From Methanomassiliicoccales archaeon (lineage in GTDB: Archaea > Thermoplasmatota > Thermoplasmata > Methanomassiliicoccales > UBA472), in the NCBI GenBank assembly GCA_038740345.1, contig JAVYMA010000015.1:1-47784 (forward strand): a DNA stretch of 47,784 nt, written 5' to 3'. The notes beneath the pieces were generated by a model. It was not told where the DNA came from and made no database searches. It worked only from the letters and a program-made list of their open reading frames with translations. Made by a program: the position numbers and the translations under genes. Each line of letters opens with the position of its first letter. Within the stretch, counting starts at the first letter, position 1. This document shows positions 13,448 through 22,900 of this stretch, piece by piece.

Positions 13448-15181
13448 TCACCGGCCTACATTCATTGGCTTCTCCTTATCCAACAGTTGGAATACTCCAC
13501 CAATTATGAGCAAGATTCCAGCCAAGGCCATAAGAAAAGCGCCTATTCCTATGGACCAGCGCAAGGAGGCATATCCATAACCCGGGAAATTTAGCGTTTC
13601 TTCGCCGCCCAAAGGATTGGAGGCCATAGCCTGGGTAATCACTTCTACATCAGGGGTCATTTGCACTGGCGCCGAACTGGGCAGAGCCATAAGGATGGAC
13701 CCGAGTGAAATCACTATCAGAAATGTGATAATTAGGGGAAGCAGGAGATTAACCCCTCTCGCAGCGTACTTGCGCGCCGCTTTCTTTCGGCTCACGGCAA
13801 CCAATGAGAAACAGAAAGTCATCAAGCTGATGATAACCAGGAGGCCAAAGGGGATGGGAAGCGAACCTACCTGCATCAACCCTCCTTTGGGGTCCAACGC
13901 GTTTATCTGCAGGCCTGTGGAACCGCTTACCGATACCATGGTGATCCAACCACCTGTCTGGAAATCAGCATAGTCAGCATTGAGCTCTGCCGTGTAATAG
14001 GGGAAGAAAGCGGAAACCAAACCTACGACTAATCCTATCAGAGCCAGCATATTCCCAATCGACCGGTAGCTCTTGCCTTTGAAATCGAAGAGCCTTATGA
14101 AAGGTGGTTGTATGTGATTCCTCTTTATCTTGCGCATGGCCAAGGCCACATAGGCGACAAATGGTATGGCGATCACGGCCAGGTATATCCATACGAAATA
14201 GTAGAAAGGAAGGGAAATGGCTAAGAATTGCTCCGTCACCTCGCTGCGGCTCTGTCCCCAGGATAGCCCCTCCCACATGCCCCCATCCTCTCTGAATCCT
14301 GGGCCTGGAGGTCCTCTCCTGCCCATGAATCCGTCTGCCACATTACCCCATTCGCCCCAGGCGCCAGCGAAATCGATCCATCCCTGTTCCGCAGGCCTAT
14401 TGCCCACTCCCTTATCACCTAAAAGTATGAGCTCATATCTGGAATCATCTGGACGGAGGATTTTGCCATTCTGCCCTACTTCGTCCCGAGCGAACTCCAA
14501 GAAACCCTGCCAGTAGCGTAAATAATTAGCATGAGACCCTTTGGCCACGTACACTTTGAGGTGTTCCCCCTCCTTTTCGATCAAAGACCAATCCCCTCTC
14601 TGACCGTAGTTATGCTGGCTATAGGCCGCAAATATCGGTTGTAAACTCACGGCATCCAGCACCACCTCAACCATCTCCCAGTCTCCCTCGTGATTATTGT
14701 AAGTCCCTTGGTTGAAGACGTAGAAGGTCCAGTACTGAACCAAAAAGTAATCACCACTACGGCTGACATGGCAATAGATGGTGTAATTCAGTCTTTCTTT
14801 TTCTTGCTCATATTTTTCTATCGCCTTAGTGTCATGTATCGTCCCTGTGAGGTCATCGAGATAGTAGTTCCCTGAAGGGTCGTTAAATGACTGCAAGTCC
14901 GCGGCCGTCAAGGGTGGTGATTTGATCAAGATCGAGCTGTTTCCTACGCTGGCATTAAGATTGCAATTGCTGAGGAAGTATTCCACTTTCACGGGGAACA
15001 CTCTTTCGTCTTTATGGAAATAGTAAATCGGAGCGAATCTCTGCATGAGCTCCCTTTCTTGGTCCTCACCTATGCCATCCCCATCCTCTGCGGCTCTAGC
15101 CACATCCACGGTGCACAAGGGCAGCATAATGACAGAGAACAAAATGAATGTCGCAACCATGATCCTGAATGTGTGGGACAT
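13448..15181 (-). CDS. Vps62-like domain membrane protein
   Basis: About 577 residues from the ATG at 15181 (a GTG lies one codon upstream). Residues 1-30 are a signal peptide (ending about VDVARAAED). Residues about 40-290 resemble the Vps62/DUF946 family: FAPIYYFHKDERVFPVKVEY, then NNHEGDWEMVEVVLD and YVAKGSHANYLRYW, which are the conserved positions of that beta-rich fold. The C-terminal half has about five membrane helices (around residues 325-345, 375-400, 445-470, 480-505 and 545-570). So the Vps62-like domain would sit outside the cell, anchored by a helical membrane part. The function of archaeal members is unknown. Standing alone between a gene-free stretch and a ferredoxin gene. Confidence 0.75.
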   Translation of the reverse strand: MSHTFRIMVATFILFSVIMLPLCTVDVARAAEDGDGIGEDQERELMQRFAPIYYFHKDERVFPVKVEYFLSNCNLNASVGNSSILIKSPPLTAADLQSFNDPSGNYYLDDLTGTIHDTKAIEKYEQEKERLNYTIYCHVSRSGDYFLVQYWTFYVFNQGTYNNHEGDWEMVEVVLDAVSLQPIFAAYSQHNYGQRGDWSLIEKEGEHLKVYVAKGSHANYLRYWQGFLEFARDEVGQNGKILRPDDSRYELILLGDKGVGNRPAEQGWIDFAGAWGEWGNVADGFMGRRGPPGPGFREDGGMWEGLSWGQSRSEVTEQFLAISLPFYYFVWIYLAVIAIPFVAYVALAMRKIKRNHIQPPFIRLFDFKGKSYRSIGNMLALIGLVVGLVSAFFPYYTAELNADYADFQTGGWITMVSVSGSTGLQINALDPKGGLMQVGSLPIPFGLLVIISLMTFCFSLVAVSRKKAARKYAARGVNLLLPLIITFLIVISLGSILMALPSSAPVQMTPDVEVITQAMASNPLGGEETLNFPGYGYASLRWSIGIGAFLMALAGILLIIGGVFQLLDKEKPMNVGR

Positions 15182-15357
15182 CACGACCCCCCGCAGGTCA
15201 TGCTATTATTGGCGAATAAATATTCTCTTACTGCAAAACATGTTTTGAATGGAATAGCAACGATTGATTATGAAACAACTCATATGGATGAGTTCAGTAG
15301 GATTCGCTCGCCTCATCCGCATTTATTTTGTATGTAGTTACTGGTGATTTTGTGCAC

Positions 15358-18675: not shown

Positions 18676-18800
18676 GCTTTGCTACGCATCCACTACCACA
18701 AGGCATCATGGCCAGGATACGGTCTGGGGTAGGGATAGCAACTATCACATTAATGCCCATGCGAACTAGAACTCCATATCTGGCTAGTTTCTGTGAGGCA

Positions 18801-18809
18801 TTATATATA
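18801..18809 (+). promoter_or_regulatory. TATA box of the TIM-barrel/SIS operon
   Basis: TTATATATA lies about 45 nt upstream of the ATG at 18850, predicting a transcript start near 18830 and a short leader with the ribosome site AGGTGA at 18840-18845. This spacing rules out the upstream in-frame GTG at 18793, which lies before the TATA box. Confidence 0.6.
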
Positions 18810-18849
18810 CAAGTACCTGATTACTAGGGATTACCGCTCAGGTGACTTG

Positions 18850-20073
18850 ATGATTCGCTTCGGGCCAGCTGGCATTCCTCTTTCTTGCAAGGGTCGGACG
18901 TTGAAGGATGGGATCGAGGACGTTCACAACCTCGGACTCAATGCTATGGAGGTACAAATGGTCCGCGTCAATGTGATGGAAAGAGTTCCAGACGAGGAGG
19001 AAGTGGGCCTTACACCTCTCCAAATCGAAGGCGATCTCGTAGTGGAGATCCTTCGTCGGAAAGGAAAGAAGGATATGGTCATAACTGATCTAAATGAGGA
19101 GATCAGGGAGGATGATACTCTAGTCACATTGGCTTCGGGTTTGGTGCAGAACTTCCAAGAGCTTCGTGAACTCGGCATCATGGGGCAAGAGTTGGACGTC
19201 GAGCTCTCCATGCATACTCCATATTACATGGACCTTGTTTCCAACAGCGATTTGACCAAGAAGAGCATGGACTCCATAAGATGGGCAGGAATGATGACGG
19301 ACCAGATGAATGGCGTGCTGGTGGCGACTCACATAGGTTTGTATGGAAAACTATCCCAAAAAGCTGCGAACCAAAATGTAAGGGACAACTTGGAGAAGAT
19401 CATCAATTGGTGGGATGAGAACAAGATCAAACCTAGGTTAGGAGTGGAGATATCTGGTCGCCAGGAGGTCTGGGGTTCCTTGGAAGAAGTTTTAGAGCTA
19501 TGTGACGATATAAAAGGTCTGGTCCCGGTTATGAATTTCGCTCATTACCATGCGCGTGAGAATGGAATTTTAAGAGAGCCTAGCGACTTCGCTGAATTCT
19601 TCGATAGATGCAAGAGCTACGTAGGGTCTCAATATTACACGCATTTCTCAGGAGTTGAGCATGAGGCAGGGAATGAGAAAAGGATTACGCCCATCAAGAA
19701 AGGGGATCTTAGGTTCGAGCCATTGGCTGAATATCTGGTGGAGGCTAATCCTAATGTAACAATCATCTCCTCCTCACCTCTTCTTGAGCACGATGCCATG
19801 TATATGAAGGTAATCTATGAACGTGTGCTTACCAAGAAGGTGGCGAAGGAAGTAAAGGCAAAGCGCTCGGAGCAGCAAGAAGAGGAGAAAGGCGCCGAGC
19901 AAGAGGAACAGAAGCTCAAGAAGACGGAAAAGACTGAGAAAGGGAAGGCCGAGAAGAAACAACAATCCAAGGAGCCTGGCAGAGATAAAGAGAAAAAACC
20001 CACAAGTGCCAACTTAAAACCCTCCAAAAAGATTGCCAAGCAGGTCGAGATTGATTACGAAGAGGATGAGTGA
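18850..20073 (+). CDS. Xylose-isomerase/endonuclease IV-like TIM-barrel protein with charged tail
   Basis: 407 residues from the ATG at 18850, decided by AGGTGA 5 nt upstream. Residues about 1-330 resemble the AP endonuclease 2/endonuclease IV TIM barrel: MIRFGPAGIPLSCKGR at the start, ELSMHTPYYMDLVS, THIGLYGK, GVEISGR, VPVMNFAHYHAR and YTHFSGVEH supply His/Glu/Asp residues at the usual barrel-end metal positions. Nfo itself cleaves abasic DNA, but this subgroup in archaea is uncharacterised. Residues about 333-407 are an extreme Lys/Glu/Gln-rich, disordered-looking tail that could bind nucleic acid or a partner. The stop overlaps the start of the SIS gene by one base (TGATG), so the two are coupled. 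Confidence 0.75.
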   Translation: MIRFGPAGIPLSCKGRTLKDGIEDVHNLGLNAMEVQMVRVNVMERVPDEEEVGLTPLQIEGDLVVEILRRKGKKDMVITDLNEEIREDDTLVTLASGLVQNFQELRELGIMGQELDVELSMHTPYYMDLVSNSDLTKKSMDSIRWAGMMTDQMNGVLVATHIGLYGKLSQKAANQNVRDNLEKIINWWDENKIKPRLGVEISGRQEVWGSLEEVLELCDDIKGLVPVMNFAHYHARENGILREPSDFAEFFDRCKSYVGSQYYTHFSGVEHEAGNEKRITPIKKGDLRFEPLAEYLVEANPNVTIISSSPLLEHDAMYMKVIYERVLTKKVAKEVKAKRSEQQEEEKGAEQEEQKLKKTEKTEKGKAEKKQQSKEPGRDKEKKPTSANLKPSKKIAKQVEIDYEEDE

Positions 20074-20612
20074 TGAAGGAAGCCTCCAATTTTATAATCT
20101 CTGAGGTAAAGGAATCTTTAGAAAAGGTAGACCCAGCATTATCTGAGAAAGTGTGCGATGCTATATTAGGAGCGAGGGTAGTATTCATTTACGGAGTGGG
20201 AAGGTCAGGACTTGTCGGCAAAGCTTTTGGCGTGCGTCTTGTCCAAATGGGTCTGGATGTCCATTTCATAGGTGATACCACGACTCCCATAGTGCAGAAA
20301 GAGGATCTGTTATTGGTCATCTCGAATACAGGGGAGACGATGTCCGCCGTCCAGACAGCCAATATTGTAGGTAGGATTGGTGCAGAGGTCGTGGTAATAA
20401 CCTCCAATCAGCAATCAAAATTAGGGAGGACGGCGAGAATCATTGTCGAAATTCAGCCCTGCCGCAAGGAGGAGAGGTCCAAATTAGCTCCACTTGGCAC
20501 TATTTTCGAAGTGGCCAGCCTTATCTATTTGGATTCCTTAGTACCTTTGTTGATGCAGAAGCTGAATCAATCAGAGGCATCTTTGCGCAAGCGTCATGCC
20601 ATATGGGTCTAA
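20073..20612 (+). CDS. hxlB: SIS-domain protein, 6-phospho-3-hexuloisomerase-like
   Basis: 179 residues from the ATG at 20073, whose A is the last base of the preceding stop. A single sugar isomerase (SIS) domain: VFIYGVGRSGLVGKAFGVRL, then HFIGDTTTPIV, LLLVISNTGETMSAVQTA and VVVITSNQQSKLGR; the C-terminal PLGTIFEVASLIYLDSLV matches 6-phospho-3-hexuloisomerase (PHI) of the archaeal ribulose monophosphate pathway, which interconverts hexulose 6-phosphate and fructose 6-phosphate. The partner hexulose-6-phosphate synthase (HxlA) is not here. Its stop overlaps the stop of the converging JAMM protease gene. Confidence 0.85.
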   Translation: MKEASNFIISEVKESLEKVDPALSEKVCDAILGARVVFIYGVGRSGLVGKAFGVRLVQMGLDVHFIGDTTTPIVQKEDLLLVISNTGETMSAVQTANIVGRIGAEVVVITSNQQSKLGRTARIIVEIQPCRKEERSKLAPLGTIFEVASLIYLDSLVPLLMQKLNQSEASLRKRHAIWV

Positions 20613-21271
20613 TTGCCATCCTTTTTACCCTTGTCAACATCGGCTAATTTTTTCCTCCTCACAGTCTCGCCGAAATATGGATTTTGATATTCGTCCCAAT
20701 ATACAGCGAAGGGGCGTGAGCGAACTTTTCCATTTTCGATGAAAAAGGACTCGATCTCCTTATTTATAGGATCGATTACAATGGCGGAATGGAATCTCTT
20801 GTTGAACAATCCTTTCTGGGTCTCGACATCAGTGGGGGAAAGAAAACATCTATGACCTGGATGAGAGTGATACCAACCAACGATCACATACTTGAAGCCT
20901 GCCTCCTCGAGGTAGGCGAAAAGTCTTTCCATCCCATCCCGCGAGAATCTAACTCTAACTGAGGAGGAATCCAAATCGGTTGTGGCCACATCTCTTACAA
21001 TAGAATATTGTACATCATTCCATGTGAATACGTTACCTAGCAGGAGTCCCATCACTTCAAGCCTCTGCGAGGCCGCGGCTGAAGCATGATTGCGTATCTT
21101 CTCCTCCGCCAGTTTCGAGAGATACAATTCATATCTACCCGGACCTACCTTTGCATACTCCTCCCGCGCCTTCTCATTCAACCATTTATGAGCGGTGCAC
21201 CTCTCTGGCGGGGGCGGCTCTCGCTGCCTAAGGCAAGGCTCGATCGCTCTAAGGATTTGTGGTGGCGTCAT
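20609..21271 (-). CDS. Rpn11-like JAMM (MPN+) metalloprotease of a ubiquitin-like system
   Basis: 220 residues from the ATG at 21271, which overlaps the E2 stop (ATGA). The full JAMM zinc-protease motif is present: E72 in RLEVMGLLLG, H135 and H137 in VGWYHSHPGHRCFLSPTD, S145 and D148. The wording EVMGLxLG ... GWYHSHPG-x-x-C-x-LS-x-x-D-x-x-TQ is very close to the proteasomal deubiquitinase Rpn11/CSN5, not to bacterial RadC or ThiF-associated JAB proteins. About 50 residues with several prolines precede the MPN domain, and a Lys/Asp-rich tail follows it. Expected role: cleaving the isopeptide bond between the Gly-Gly modifier and target lysine. The modifier already ends in GG, so precursor maturation is not needed. 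Last gene of the operon. Confidence 0.92.
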   Translation of the reverse strand: MTPPQILRAIEPCLRQREPPPPERCTAHKWLNEKAREEYAKVGPGRYELYLSKLAEEKIRNHASAAASQRLEVMGLLLGNVFTWNDVQYSIVRDVATTDLDSSSVRVRFSRDGMERLFAYLEEAGFKYVIVGWYHSHPGHRCFLSPTDVETQKGLFNKRFHSAIVIDPINKEIESFFIENGKVRSRPFAVYWDEYQNPYFGETVRRKKLADVDKGKKDGN

Positions 21272-21777
21272 ACCTCCCTCACGACTTTTGGCAAAGGTAC
21301 TGAGATCAATGGCCCCCCAGTTTTTCGGGTTCGGTTGAAATATTCGGCTGCAAGGGTGCACGTTTCAGTTCCGAATGGGCTTGATGGATTGGGGTTGAGC
21401 AGAAGATACTCGATGCCCTTGATGAACATAAGCAAAGTAGAATTAAAACTCCACTCGTCAAGTAGTTTATTGCAAAGGAAGCCCCCATCTTCTGGCATCA
21501 TTATATTGGGATGAAAGATGGGAGTAAGCCAAGTGACCTGAGGCTTCTGGAAGGGGTAATCGGCTGTTATTGTCAGCGAAAAGCGATGATGATACCTTTT
21601 CCTGATTTGGCCATTAATAAGCTCATAACCTGGTATTTGCACTAAGAGCATCTCAATCTCCAAAGGGAATGTGGAGAAGGCGTTTTCTTCTATCTCAATG
21701 GGGTGTTTGAGACATCTCTGGCAAATAGCCAGCTCATTCTTCAGCCTGGATACGAGTACTTCGCGGGGTAAAGGCAT
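21268..21777 (-). CDS. E2-like ubiquitin-conjugating enzyme
   Basis: 169 residues with a recognisable UBC fold: N-terminal helix (EVLVSRLKNELAICQR), beta strands ending in FSLTITADYPFQKPQVTW, the HPN motif at residues 89-91 (FHPNI), catalytic Cys102 in GGFLCNKLLDEWS, the conserved Trp109, and the later PNP (129-131) followed by a C-terminal helix (AAEYFNRTRK). Eukaryotic E2s read HPN-I-x3-G-x-I-C-L-x-I-L-x3-W; here the HPN-to-Cys distance is 3 residues longer. All hallmarks needed to carry a modifier as a thioester are there. The gene starts 3 nt after the ubiquitin-like gene stop and ends in ATGA overlap with the JAMM gene, so the three are translationally coupled. Confidence 0.92.
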   Translation of the reverse strand: MPLPREVLVSRLKNELAICQRCLKHPIEIEENAFSTFPLEIEMLLVQIPGYELINGQIRKRYHHRFSLTITADYPFQKPQVTWLTPIFHPNIMMPEDGGFLCNKLLDEWSFNSTLLMFIKGIEYLLLNPNPSSPFGTETCTLAAEYFNRTRKTGGPLISVPLPKVVREV

Positions 21778-21780
21778 CCA

Positions 21781-22020
21781 TCAACCGCCTTCTGGGTCAG
21801 GGATGAGCTCCAAATCGTCTGAATTGCATATTCCAGCCTCAAGCACCGTTTGCTGTCCTCTAAGAAGCTTCTTACCCCTGCGTAATACGTAAGCGCCAGC
21901 GTCCTTTTCCCAATATCCTGCAGCTCCTTCTATTATCTCCTGGATAGTATTTTCCTCCTCCAGCTCCATATCAACGGTGCTGCCCGTCTCAGCATTTCTT
22001 ACTCTGACTCGTACGGACAT
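21781..22020 (-). CDS. Ubiquitin-like modifier ending in Gly-Gly
   Basis: 79 residues with predicted beta-grasp pattern: strand 1 (SVRVRVRNAET), turn, strand 2 (STVDMELEEEN), the main helix (TIQEIIEGAAGYWEK), strand AYVLRRGKKLL, then TVLEAGICNSDDLELIP and the C-terminal tail DPEGG with the stop codon directly after GG (78-79). The LRRGKKLL ... TVLEAGI order parallels ubiquitin's strand 3 and following loop. Because no residues follow the diglycine, it can be activated by E1 without proteolysis. Internal lysines for chain formation are few: K39, K50 and K51. Located between E1 (94 nt away) and E2 (3 nt). No clear ribosome site is seen ahead of the ATG. Confidence 0.92.
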   Translation of the reverse strand: MSVRVRVRNAETGSTVDMELEEENTIQEIIEGAAGYWEKDAGAYVLRRGKKLLRGQQTVLEAGICNSDDLELIPDPEGG

Positions 22021-22114: not shown

Positions 22115-22900
22115 TTAATTATGGAGTTGGCATTGAGGATCAAGCTCCACCTCCACTTCTATGCAGGCATTCGTCAGGCCGTTGTATAAGAACATATGAC
22201 GAAGGCAGGAGTCCGCTTTTCCGCTGATTATCTTGAGAGCCTCTCGGACCTGAATGGCAGCTATGATGCTGGTGGTAGTTATTTCAGCTGCCAACTTTGG
22301 CTCGAAATAGTTCGTATCCGCACCAGTGCAGCTGTAGCGTCTTTCGAGCACACGATAATGGCTGCGATTCATAGAGCACTGAAGGCAAGGATCTGATGGT
22401 GGCAGAGCAACCTGGACCTTGCCTGAGGTCCCTAGAGTCCCCCCATCGACCAGAGGTCTAGAATAGTGATAGCAAAAAGCATTGACATGCAGGCGTGCTG
22501 CGATGTTATCCAGGCACCCTAAGACCAAATCGATTTCCTGGAACAGCCTCTCAGGAATTTCCTCTATTCTTGAGACTATCCCTTTCACTCTTGCTTCAGA
22601 ATCTAATTGCCCAGCCTTTTCGGCTAGGACCAATGCTTTTGGCTTCCCCAATAGGGCATCTTTTTCATCGAAGAAAAGACATCTGTTGAGATTGGAGCGC
22701 ACCACCTTATCCATGTCCACCACGGTTATATGGCGCACACCCGCAAGCAACAGATTTTTCAACACCTCATTCCCTAAGGCGCCAGCTCCGACTACTAGAA
22801 TCCTACTTCCCATTACCTTATCCAAATCGATCCAGCCAACTCGCCGAGTACGGTCGTGCCTATCCTCATTTAATATATTTGGTGTGATTACGTAACTCAT
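22115..22900 (-). CDS. E1-like ubiquitin-activating enzyme
   Basis: 261 residues, a minimal adenylating E1 of the ThiF/UBA fold. Visible: DRHDRTRR near the N-terminus (the D-R-Q-x-R position of E1s), ATP loop GAGALGNEVLKNLLLAGV (38-55), VVDMDKVVRSNLNR (60-73) with the Asp and Arg that hold ATP, K86, LGCLDNIAARLHVN (127-140) with the Mg-binding Asp131, and a C-T motif, SCTGADTNYFEP, putting Cys191 as candidate thioester residue. A CLQC pair (172-175) recalls the zinc site, but the second CxxC pair is not obvious. The wording is closest to eukaryotic Uba2/Uba3, yet there is no separate Cys-domain insert and no ubiquitin-fold domain. First gene of the operon; probably leaderless. Confidence 0.93.
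   Translation of the reverse strand: MSYVITPNILNEDRHDRTRRVGWIDLDKVMGSRILVVGAGALGNEVLKNLLLAGVRHITVVDMDKVVRSNLNRCLFFDEKDALLGKPKALVLAEKAGQLDSEARVKGIVSRIEEIPERLFQEIDLVLGCLDNIAARLHVNAFCYHYSRPLVDGGTLGTSGKVQVALPPSDPCLQCSMNRSHYRVLERRYSCTGADTNYFEPKLAAEITTTSIIAAIQVREALKIISGKADSCLRHMFLYNGLTNACIEVEVELDPQCQLHN

Follow-up and report, generated by a model that had tools for sequence, protein, structure and literature searches.

Introduction

The archaeal E1-E2-E3 systems reconstituted or discussed in the papers that we found come from Caldiarchaeum/Aigarchaeota and from Asgard archaea. An E1-E2-RING cascade has been reconstituted from Caldiarchaeum (PMC5654768), and in Caldiarchaeum subterraneum, as in the locus described here, the genes for an E1, an E2, a modifier that ends in GG and a JAMM protease resembling Rpn11 are grouped (PMC5654768, PMC6043591). 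Prokaryotic JAMM proteases encoded in operons with ubiquitin, E1 and E2 homologues have been united as the JAMM-3 group (PMC6043591); the main text of that paper describes the group without naming its organisms, names no Thermoplasmatota and gives E3 homologues for Caldiarchaeum and Asgard archaea only. Our literature search, supplements and subscription journals excepted, returned no paper on an E1-Ubl-E2-JAMM system in Thermoplasmatota.

Here we analyze such a system in a 47,784-nucleotide stretch of a Methanomassiliicoccales genome (the window). We propose, with a probability of roughly 0.78, that its E2 acts in a ubiquitin-like conjugation pathway, compact and chromosomal, that Methanomassiliicoccales share with other Thermoplasmatota and for which a mechanism is suggested below.

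Results

The E2 and its operon

The E2 reading frame occupies window positions 21268-21777 of the minus strand and encodes 169 amino acids from an ATG. It is the third gene of an operon that reads, along the minus strand, E1, modifier, E2 and Rpn11-like JAMM protease:

22115..22900, minus strand: E1-like activating enzyme, 261 aa, first gene (ThiF, 1.6e-54)
21781..22020, minus strand: ubiquitin-like modifier, 79 aa, ending ...DPEGG with no tail (weak YukD match)
21268..21777, minus strand: E2 conjugating enzyme (UQ_con, UBC-fold model, structural matches to E2s)
20609..21271, minus strand: Rpn11-like JAMM/MPN+ protease, 220 aa (JAB, 1.8e-14)

The E2 scores 49.8 bits with Pfam UQ_con, whose cut-off is 27 (E 3.6e-13). 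This match is beyond chance, and the gene is the only one in the whole genome to match that model. The PDB sequences that it matches best are those of eukaryotic E2s (E 1.8e-11). Neither the E2 nor the modifier is covered by an NCBIfam model, and a scan of viral contigs for the E2 gave a single weak, partial match only. An AF2 model built from 30 sequences adopts the UBC fold with a mean pLDDT of 88.7 (81 over residues 101-110). The initial annotation had suggested superposing such a model on a eukaryotic E2. In a structural comparison, 509 of 987 chains matched at Z >= 8, the top ones listed being E2s, with UBE2S the best match (Z 15.1, rmsd 3.2, 131 residues aligned). Identity to eukaryotic E2s in the structural alignments is 19-29%. 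DSSP places a 3-residue helix directly after Cys102 in the model, and a short helix after the catalytic cysteine agrees with E2 anatomy. Judged by its profile matches and predicted fold, the 169-aa protein is a genuine E2 and the third gene of a complete four-gene ubiquitin-like operon.

The start codon of the JAMM gene overlaps the E2 stop codon (ATGA, 21271-21268). Its motif residues Glu, HSH, Ser and Asp are invariant in the aligned set, and a profile of the family finds Rpn11 best (1.2e-27), followed by CsRpn11 and CSN5. The E1 is likewise intact, with GAGALG (38-43), D62, D64, N70, R73, K88, D131 and Cys191 (in RYSCTG) invariant in its family; C172, C175, C257 and H260 are also family-invariant and probably form a zinc site. 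Compared with two related loci (L005 and L006), the most conserved operon product is the modifier (91% identity), followed by the E2 (70-73%), the E1 (56-58%) and the JAMM protein (50-58%).

The size of the E1, which is that of MoeB or ThiF, and its nearest NCBIfam models, ThiF and MoeB (both below their cut-offs), would also fit an operon devoted to ThiS/MoaD-like sulfur transfer, with the E2 and JAMM protein as accessories. We regard this as very improbable, given that the E1 profile lies nearer to Uba1, its best match (4e-43), than to MoeB or ThiF (7e-32), that an E2 and an Rpn11-like JAMM are co-conserved within the operon, and that a second ThiF homologue is encoded elsewhere in the genome. 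A weak ThiF match on contig 8 was rejected as a second E1, the protein being FtsZ by Pfam.

The E2 active site

The residues discussed below are encoded as follows:

21505..21513, minus strand: HPN motif, residues 89-91, invariant in 30 of 30 aligned sequences
21472..21474, minus strand: putative catalytic Cys102, aligned on the E2 catalytic Cys and invariant
21466..21468, minus strand: Lys104, at the UbcH5 Asp87 position by alignment; Lys or Arg in 101 of 109 relatives
21451..21453, minus strand: Trp109 of loop 7, by alignment
21385..21393, minus strand: PNP, residues 129-131; Pro129 and Asn130 invariant, third position variable

That HPN, Cys102, Trp109 and PNP occur in the eukaryotic order, with three extra residues between HPN and the cysteine, had been noted from the letters of the window. 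The translation confirms the order, and the spacing holds in an E2 family profile alignment with UBE2E1, UBE2N and UBE2A, where HPN matches HPN, Cys102 pairs with the catalytic cysteine and Trp109 with the tryptophan of loop 7. Relative to eukaryotic E2s, three residues are added after HPN-I and, a point absent from the initial annotation, one fewer residue separates the cysteine from the tryptophan. Both features are fixed: the gap from HPN to Cys is ten residues (canonically seven), and Cys-x6-Trp is kept, in all 109 relatives scored by the motif pattern. The HPN itself is present in 110 of 110 distinct relatives, including one outside the pattern (L155) that by reading has IFHPNIM...VC...W.

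Low identity to eukaryotic E2s and the odd active-site spacing could suggest a degenerate, UEV-like protein that merely binds the modifier. Such a protein would hardly be expected to keep HPN, Cys and Trp invariant in a family as divergent as this one, whose 30 aligned members fall to 36% identity with the window E2; nor does UQ_con find another E2 in the genome that could be the catalytic one. We consider a non-catalytic role extremely unlikely. The earlier view that the protein is not a degenerate UBC relative is well supported by this conservation, by the UBC fold of the model and by the other products of the operon, where E1 and JAMM protease are both intact and the modifier ends in GG.

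The acceptor residue

It had also been suggested that the E2 can probably transfer its modifier to lysine, which is plausible. E2s without HPN, of the UBE2Q and UBE2J families, act on Ser/Thr (PMC10971424), so the intact HPN favors lysine chemistry here. A hydroxyl or thiol as the natural acceptor of an active E2 is improbable in our judgment, although two positions invite it. At Cys+2, the Asp87 position of UbcH5, Lys is found in 84 and Arg in 17 of the 109 E2s; at the UbcH5 Asp117 position, where an acidic residue normally aligns the incoming lysine (PMC5095918), Ser (53) and Asn (47) predominate and Asp occurs in only 5. UBE2L3, with His at this position, is thiol-only, whereas UBE2A carries Ser there and is nonetheless active (PMC5095918).

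The modifier and its protease

A profile of the modifier family finds ubiquitin, with polyubiquitin entries reaching 2e-17 and single chains mostly at 0.01-0.1. PDPEGG is invariant in the 25-sequence alignment and reads PDPQGG in some modifiers of genus g13. Distinct modifiers encoded ahead of a JAMM gene divide almost evenly, 52 stopping at GG and 50 extending beyond it.

The JAMM gene of genus g13 keeps its place behind the E2 gene but no longer encodes the HSH and Ser ligands in any of the seven genomes examined (JAMM-loss loci L042, L044, L287-L291, L293 and L294). A view of g13 as lacking the gene, PF01398 finding none, was rejected, as closer profiles reveal it with the motif destroyed. 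All readable modifiers of the genus end exactly at GG; that of one genome (G335) was not detected. In this one lineage, a JAMM apparently dead by its sequence together with GG-ending modifiers fits a trimming role of the protease.

Distribution and chromosomal setting

The E2 is present in 97 of the 147 Methanomassiliicoccales genomes and in 98 of 300 genomes sampled from the class, and by the titles of the matched contigs its relatives belong to Methanomassiliicoccales and other Thermoplasmatota. Of 157 E2-carrying loci, some of which are one genome fetched twice, 123 were scored as E1-Ubl-E2-JAB in this order; the remaining loci, partly sorted, mostly have the E1 cut off or undetected, or overlapping frames that upset the automatic order.

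The operon has a stable neighborhood. Across 81 loci compared, a convergent SIS gene is found in 56 and a TIM-barrel gene in 53, with the ribosomal protein genes L18e, L13 and S9 beyond them in fewer loci. In the window, the TIM-barrel gene (18793-20073) overlaps the SIS-domain gene (20070-20612), both on the plus strand and convergent to the operon.

This setting bears on a possible role in anti-phage defense of the bacterial E1-E2-JAB or Bil type. The E1-E2 and JAB models of PADLOC do give weak matches to the E1 and the JAMM protein, but we judged these matches generic and set them aside as a defense signal; no model of the 2023 library matches the E2 or the modifier, and the operon is spread over the whole order in its stable chromosomal context. 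A defense function thus has little chance of being correct, and we retain the conjugation pathway as the preferred reading.

Two side observations were made. Window positions 13448-15184 of the minus strand encode a protein of 578 aa whose C-terminal segments are hydrophobic and which matches a Vps62 domain (Pfam 2.4e-07). Separately, two loci filed under the same class (L051 and L052, genomes G074 and G084), on single contigs of 3.2 and 5.2 Mb, carry a different E2 with HPN-x17-Cys followed by an Rpn11-like JAMM; the E1 of L052 has a C-terminal extension. These E2 loci look like the Asgard type.

A RING/zinc-ribbon protein as candidate E3

Neither the operon nor the adjacent genes scanned contain a RING gene. 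A genome search with a RING profile gave a sub-threshold match on contig 8, which is not the operon's contig, to a protein of 257 aa that combines a hydrophobic N-terminal helix with a RING-like finger and zinc ribbons. The finger follows the ligand pattern C-x2-C...C-x-[CST]-G...H-x2-C...CP-x-C, with T/S as the fourth zinc ligand in family f6, and scores below the cut-off of PF13639. Of 37 relatives surveyed, about two thirds carry an upstream segment of 19 residues whose mean hydropathy is at least 1.78; the segment is missing in family f6, in genera g3, g4 and g7 and in a few others. The predicted model has a pLDDT of 75.9, and its top Foldseek rows are RING E3s at a weak E of 0.02 (VIA Z <= 5.1).

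The gene belongs to a conserved run, RING-(ftsZ)-pop5-psmA-SBDS, divergent from an hdrA-like gene; from reading their sequences we take three of these genes to be pop5, psmA and SBDS, while FtsZ is a Pfam match. The ftsZ gene stands between RING and pop5-psmA in several families, as at 2719-4957 of L050 (contig C8), and is absent there elsewhere. As far as could be found, an unlinked RING gene beside psmA is unreported.

The RING gene is co-inherited with the E2 gene. Both are present in 91 of the 147 genomes of the order and neither in 47, while 6 have the E2 only and 3 the RING only (Fisher p=5e-28); in one of these last three (G213) the RING is a 33-aa fragment. To allow for relatedness, E2 labels were shuffled 100,000 times within the six mixed genera, where 51 of 55 genomes are concordant against a shuffle mean of 36.5 and a maximum of 49. 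TerC, a similarly patchy control gene that adjoins the operon in the window, is not associated with the E2 (p 0.86; shuffle p 0.90). Twelve inspected E2-less genomes in genera g12, g13, g18 and g21 lack the RING with its flanks kept, and E2-positive relatives in g13 and g18 keep it in the slot. This suggests at least four joint losses, counted by genus with no species tree and with g26 assessed by presence and absence alone. An E2 scored as absent from an incomplete genome may in some cases have fallen into an assembly gap.

In the class sample of 300, a RING match is found in 98 of 98 E2-positive genomes and also in 66 of the 202 without E2. The RING family is therefore wider than the E2 pathway, and its use as an exclusive class-level marker of the pathway was rejected. 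Outside the order, many Thermoplasmata genomes, several of them without E2, also have RING-profile matches within open frames about 1500 residues long.

The RING/zinc-ribbon protein is the best E3 candidate. Contact with the E2 would be atypical, since loop 7 of the window E2 reads WSFNS (WSPAL in UBE2E1) and the RING protein has no consistent linchpin Arg/Lys after the last Cys; FANCL also works without a linchpin (PMC5095918). The RING protein does have Ile, Met or Val at the C-x-[I]-C position, the usual E2 contact of RINGs. Alternatively, the protein may be no E3 at all and be lost with the E2 as both serve another process. The unconserved linchpin and zinc ligand, the putative nature of its E2 binding and the RING matches without E2 outside the order would all allow this. 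We nevertheless find it somewhat unlikely in view of the gene-specific joint loss in several genera from a fixed slot with its neighbors kept, the RING E3s among the best Foldseek matches and the residue at the E2-contacting position.

Discussion

From the gene content and order, the intact catalytic residues, the UBC fold and the co-inheritance with the RING gene, we infer a chemistry, an E3 function, an acceptor residue and a substrate fate as follows. The JAMM protease would trim tailed modifier precursors (the window modifier is tail-less) and remove conjugates. The E1 would adenylate the GG end of the modifier and load it on its Cys191, from which it would pass to Cys102 of the E2. The E2, with Asn91 as the oxyanion residue, would then hand the modifier to a substrate, most likely onto lysine, probably stimulated by the RING/zinc-ribbon protein, whose gene lies upstream of that for the 20S proteasome alpha subunit. 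Given that position of the RING gene, conjugates may feed the proteasome. To the broader reading, a ubiquitin-proteasome-like pathway of methanogenic Thermoplasmatota spread over two loci (the E1-Ubl-E2-JAMM operon and an often membrane-anchored RING E3 encoded upstream of psmA), inherited and lost as a unit and marked by an E2 site with HPN-x10-Cys and a basic Cys+2, we give even odds.

If the pathway is kept vertically across an order with cultured methanogens among its members, ubiquitin-like signaling of prokaryotes would become testable in living cells, and the psmA link bears on how ubiquitin tagging became coupled to the proteasome. Genus g13, with its dead JAMM and pre-matured modifier, would serve as a natural experiment on the role of the protease.

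The proposed pathway differs from each described system in a few ways. First, the SAMP/UbaA/HvJAMM1 system of Haloferax volcanii also comprises an archaeal Ubl, an E1 and a JAMM, but conjugation there is E2-free (PMC11354881), whereas here an E2 stands in the operon. Second, the bacterial E1-E2-Ubl-JAB operons (CBASS type II and Bil) have E1, E2 and JAB parts in common with this locus, in which there is no defense setting, E1 and E2 are separate proteins, and the E2 keeps HPN and has no PADLOC match (2023 library). Third, the eukaryotic class I E2s (UBE2E1, UBE2N, UBE2A and UBE2D) share the UBC fold, HPN, Cys, loop-7 Trp and PNP, although here HPN-Cys is three residues longer, Cys-Trp one shorter, Asp87 is replaced by Lys and loop 7 lacks SPA. 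Finally, the Caldiarchaeum system likewise has an E2 with HPN and a catalytic Cys and removable modifier tails, which here occur in relatives. In contrast to it, the RING gene lies outside the operon, on another contig upstream of psmA; the E1 has 261 aa and is ThiF/MoeB-sized; the E2 has HPN-x10-Cys, a basic Cys+2 and WSFNS in loop 7; and the JAMM gene shares operon and strand with the E2 gene, to which it is ATGA-coupled. The gene content of the operon and the closeness of its JAMM to Rpn11/CSN5 are both features of the JAMM-3 group (PMC6043591); the Methanomassiliicoccales cassette may belong to that group and may already have been noticed as part of it.
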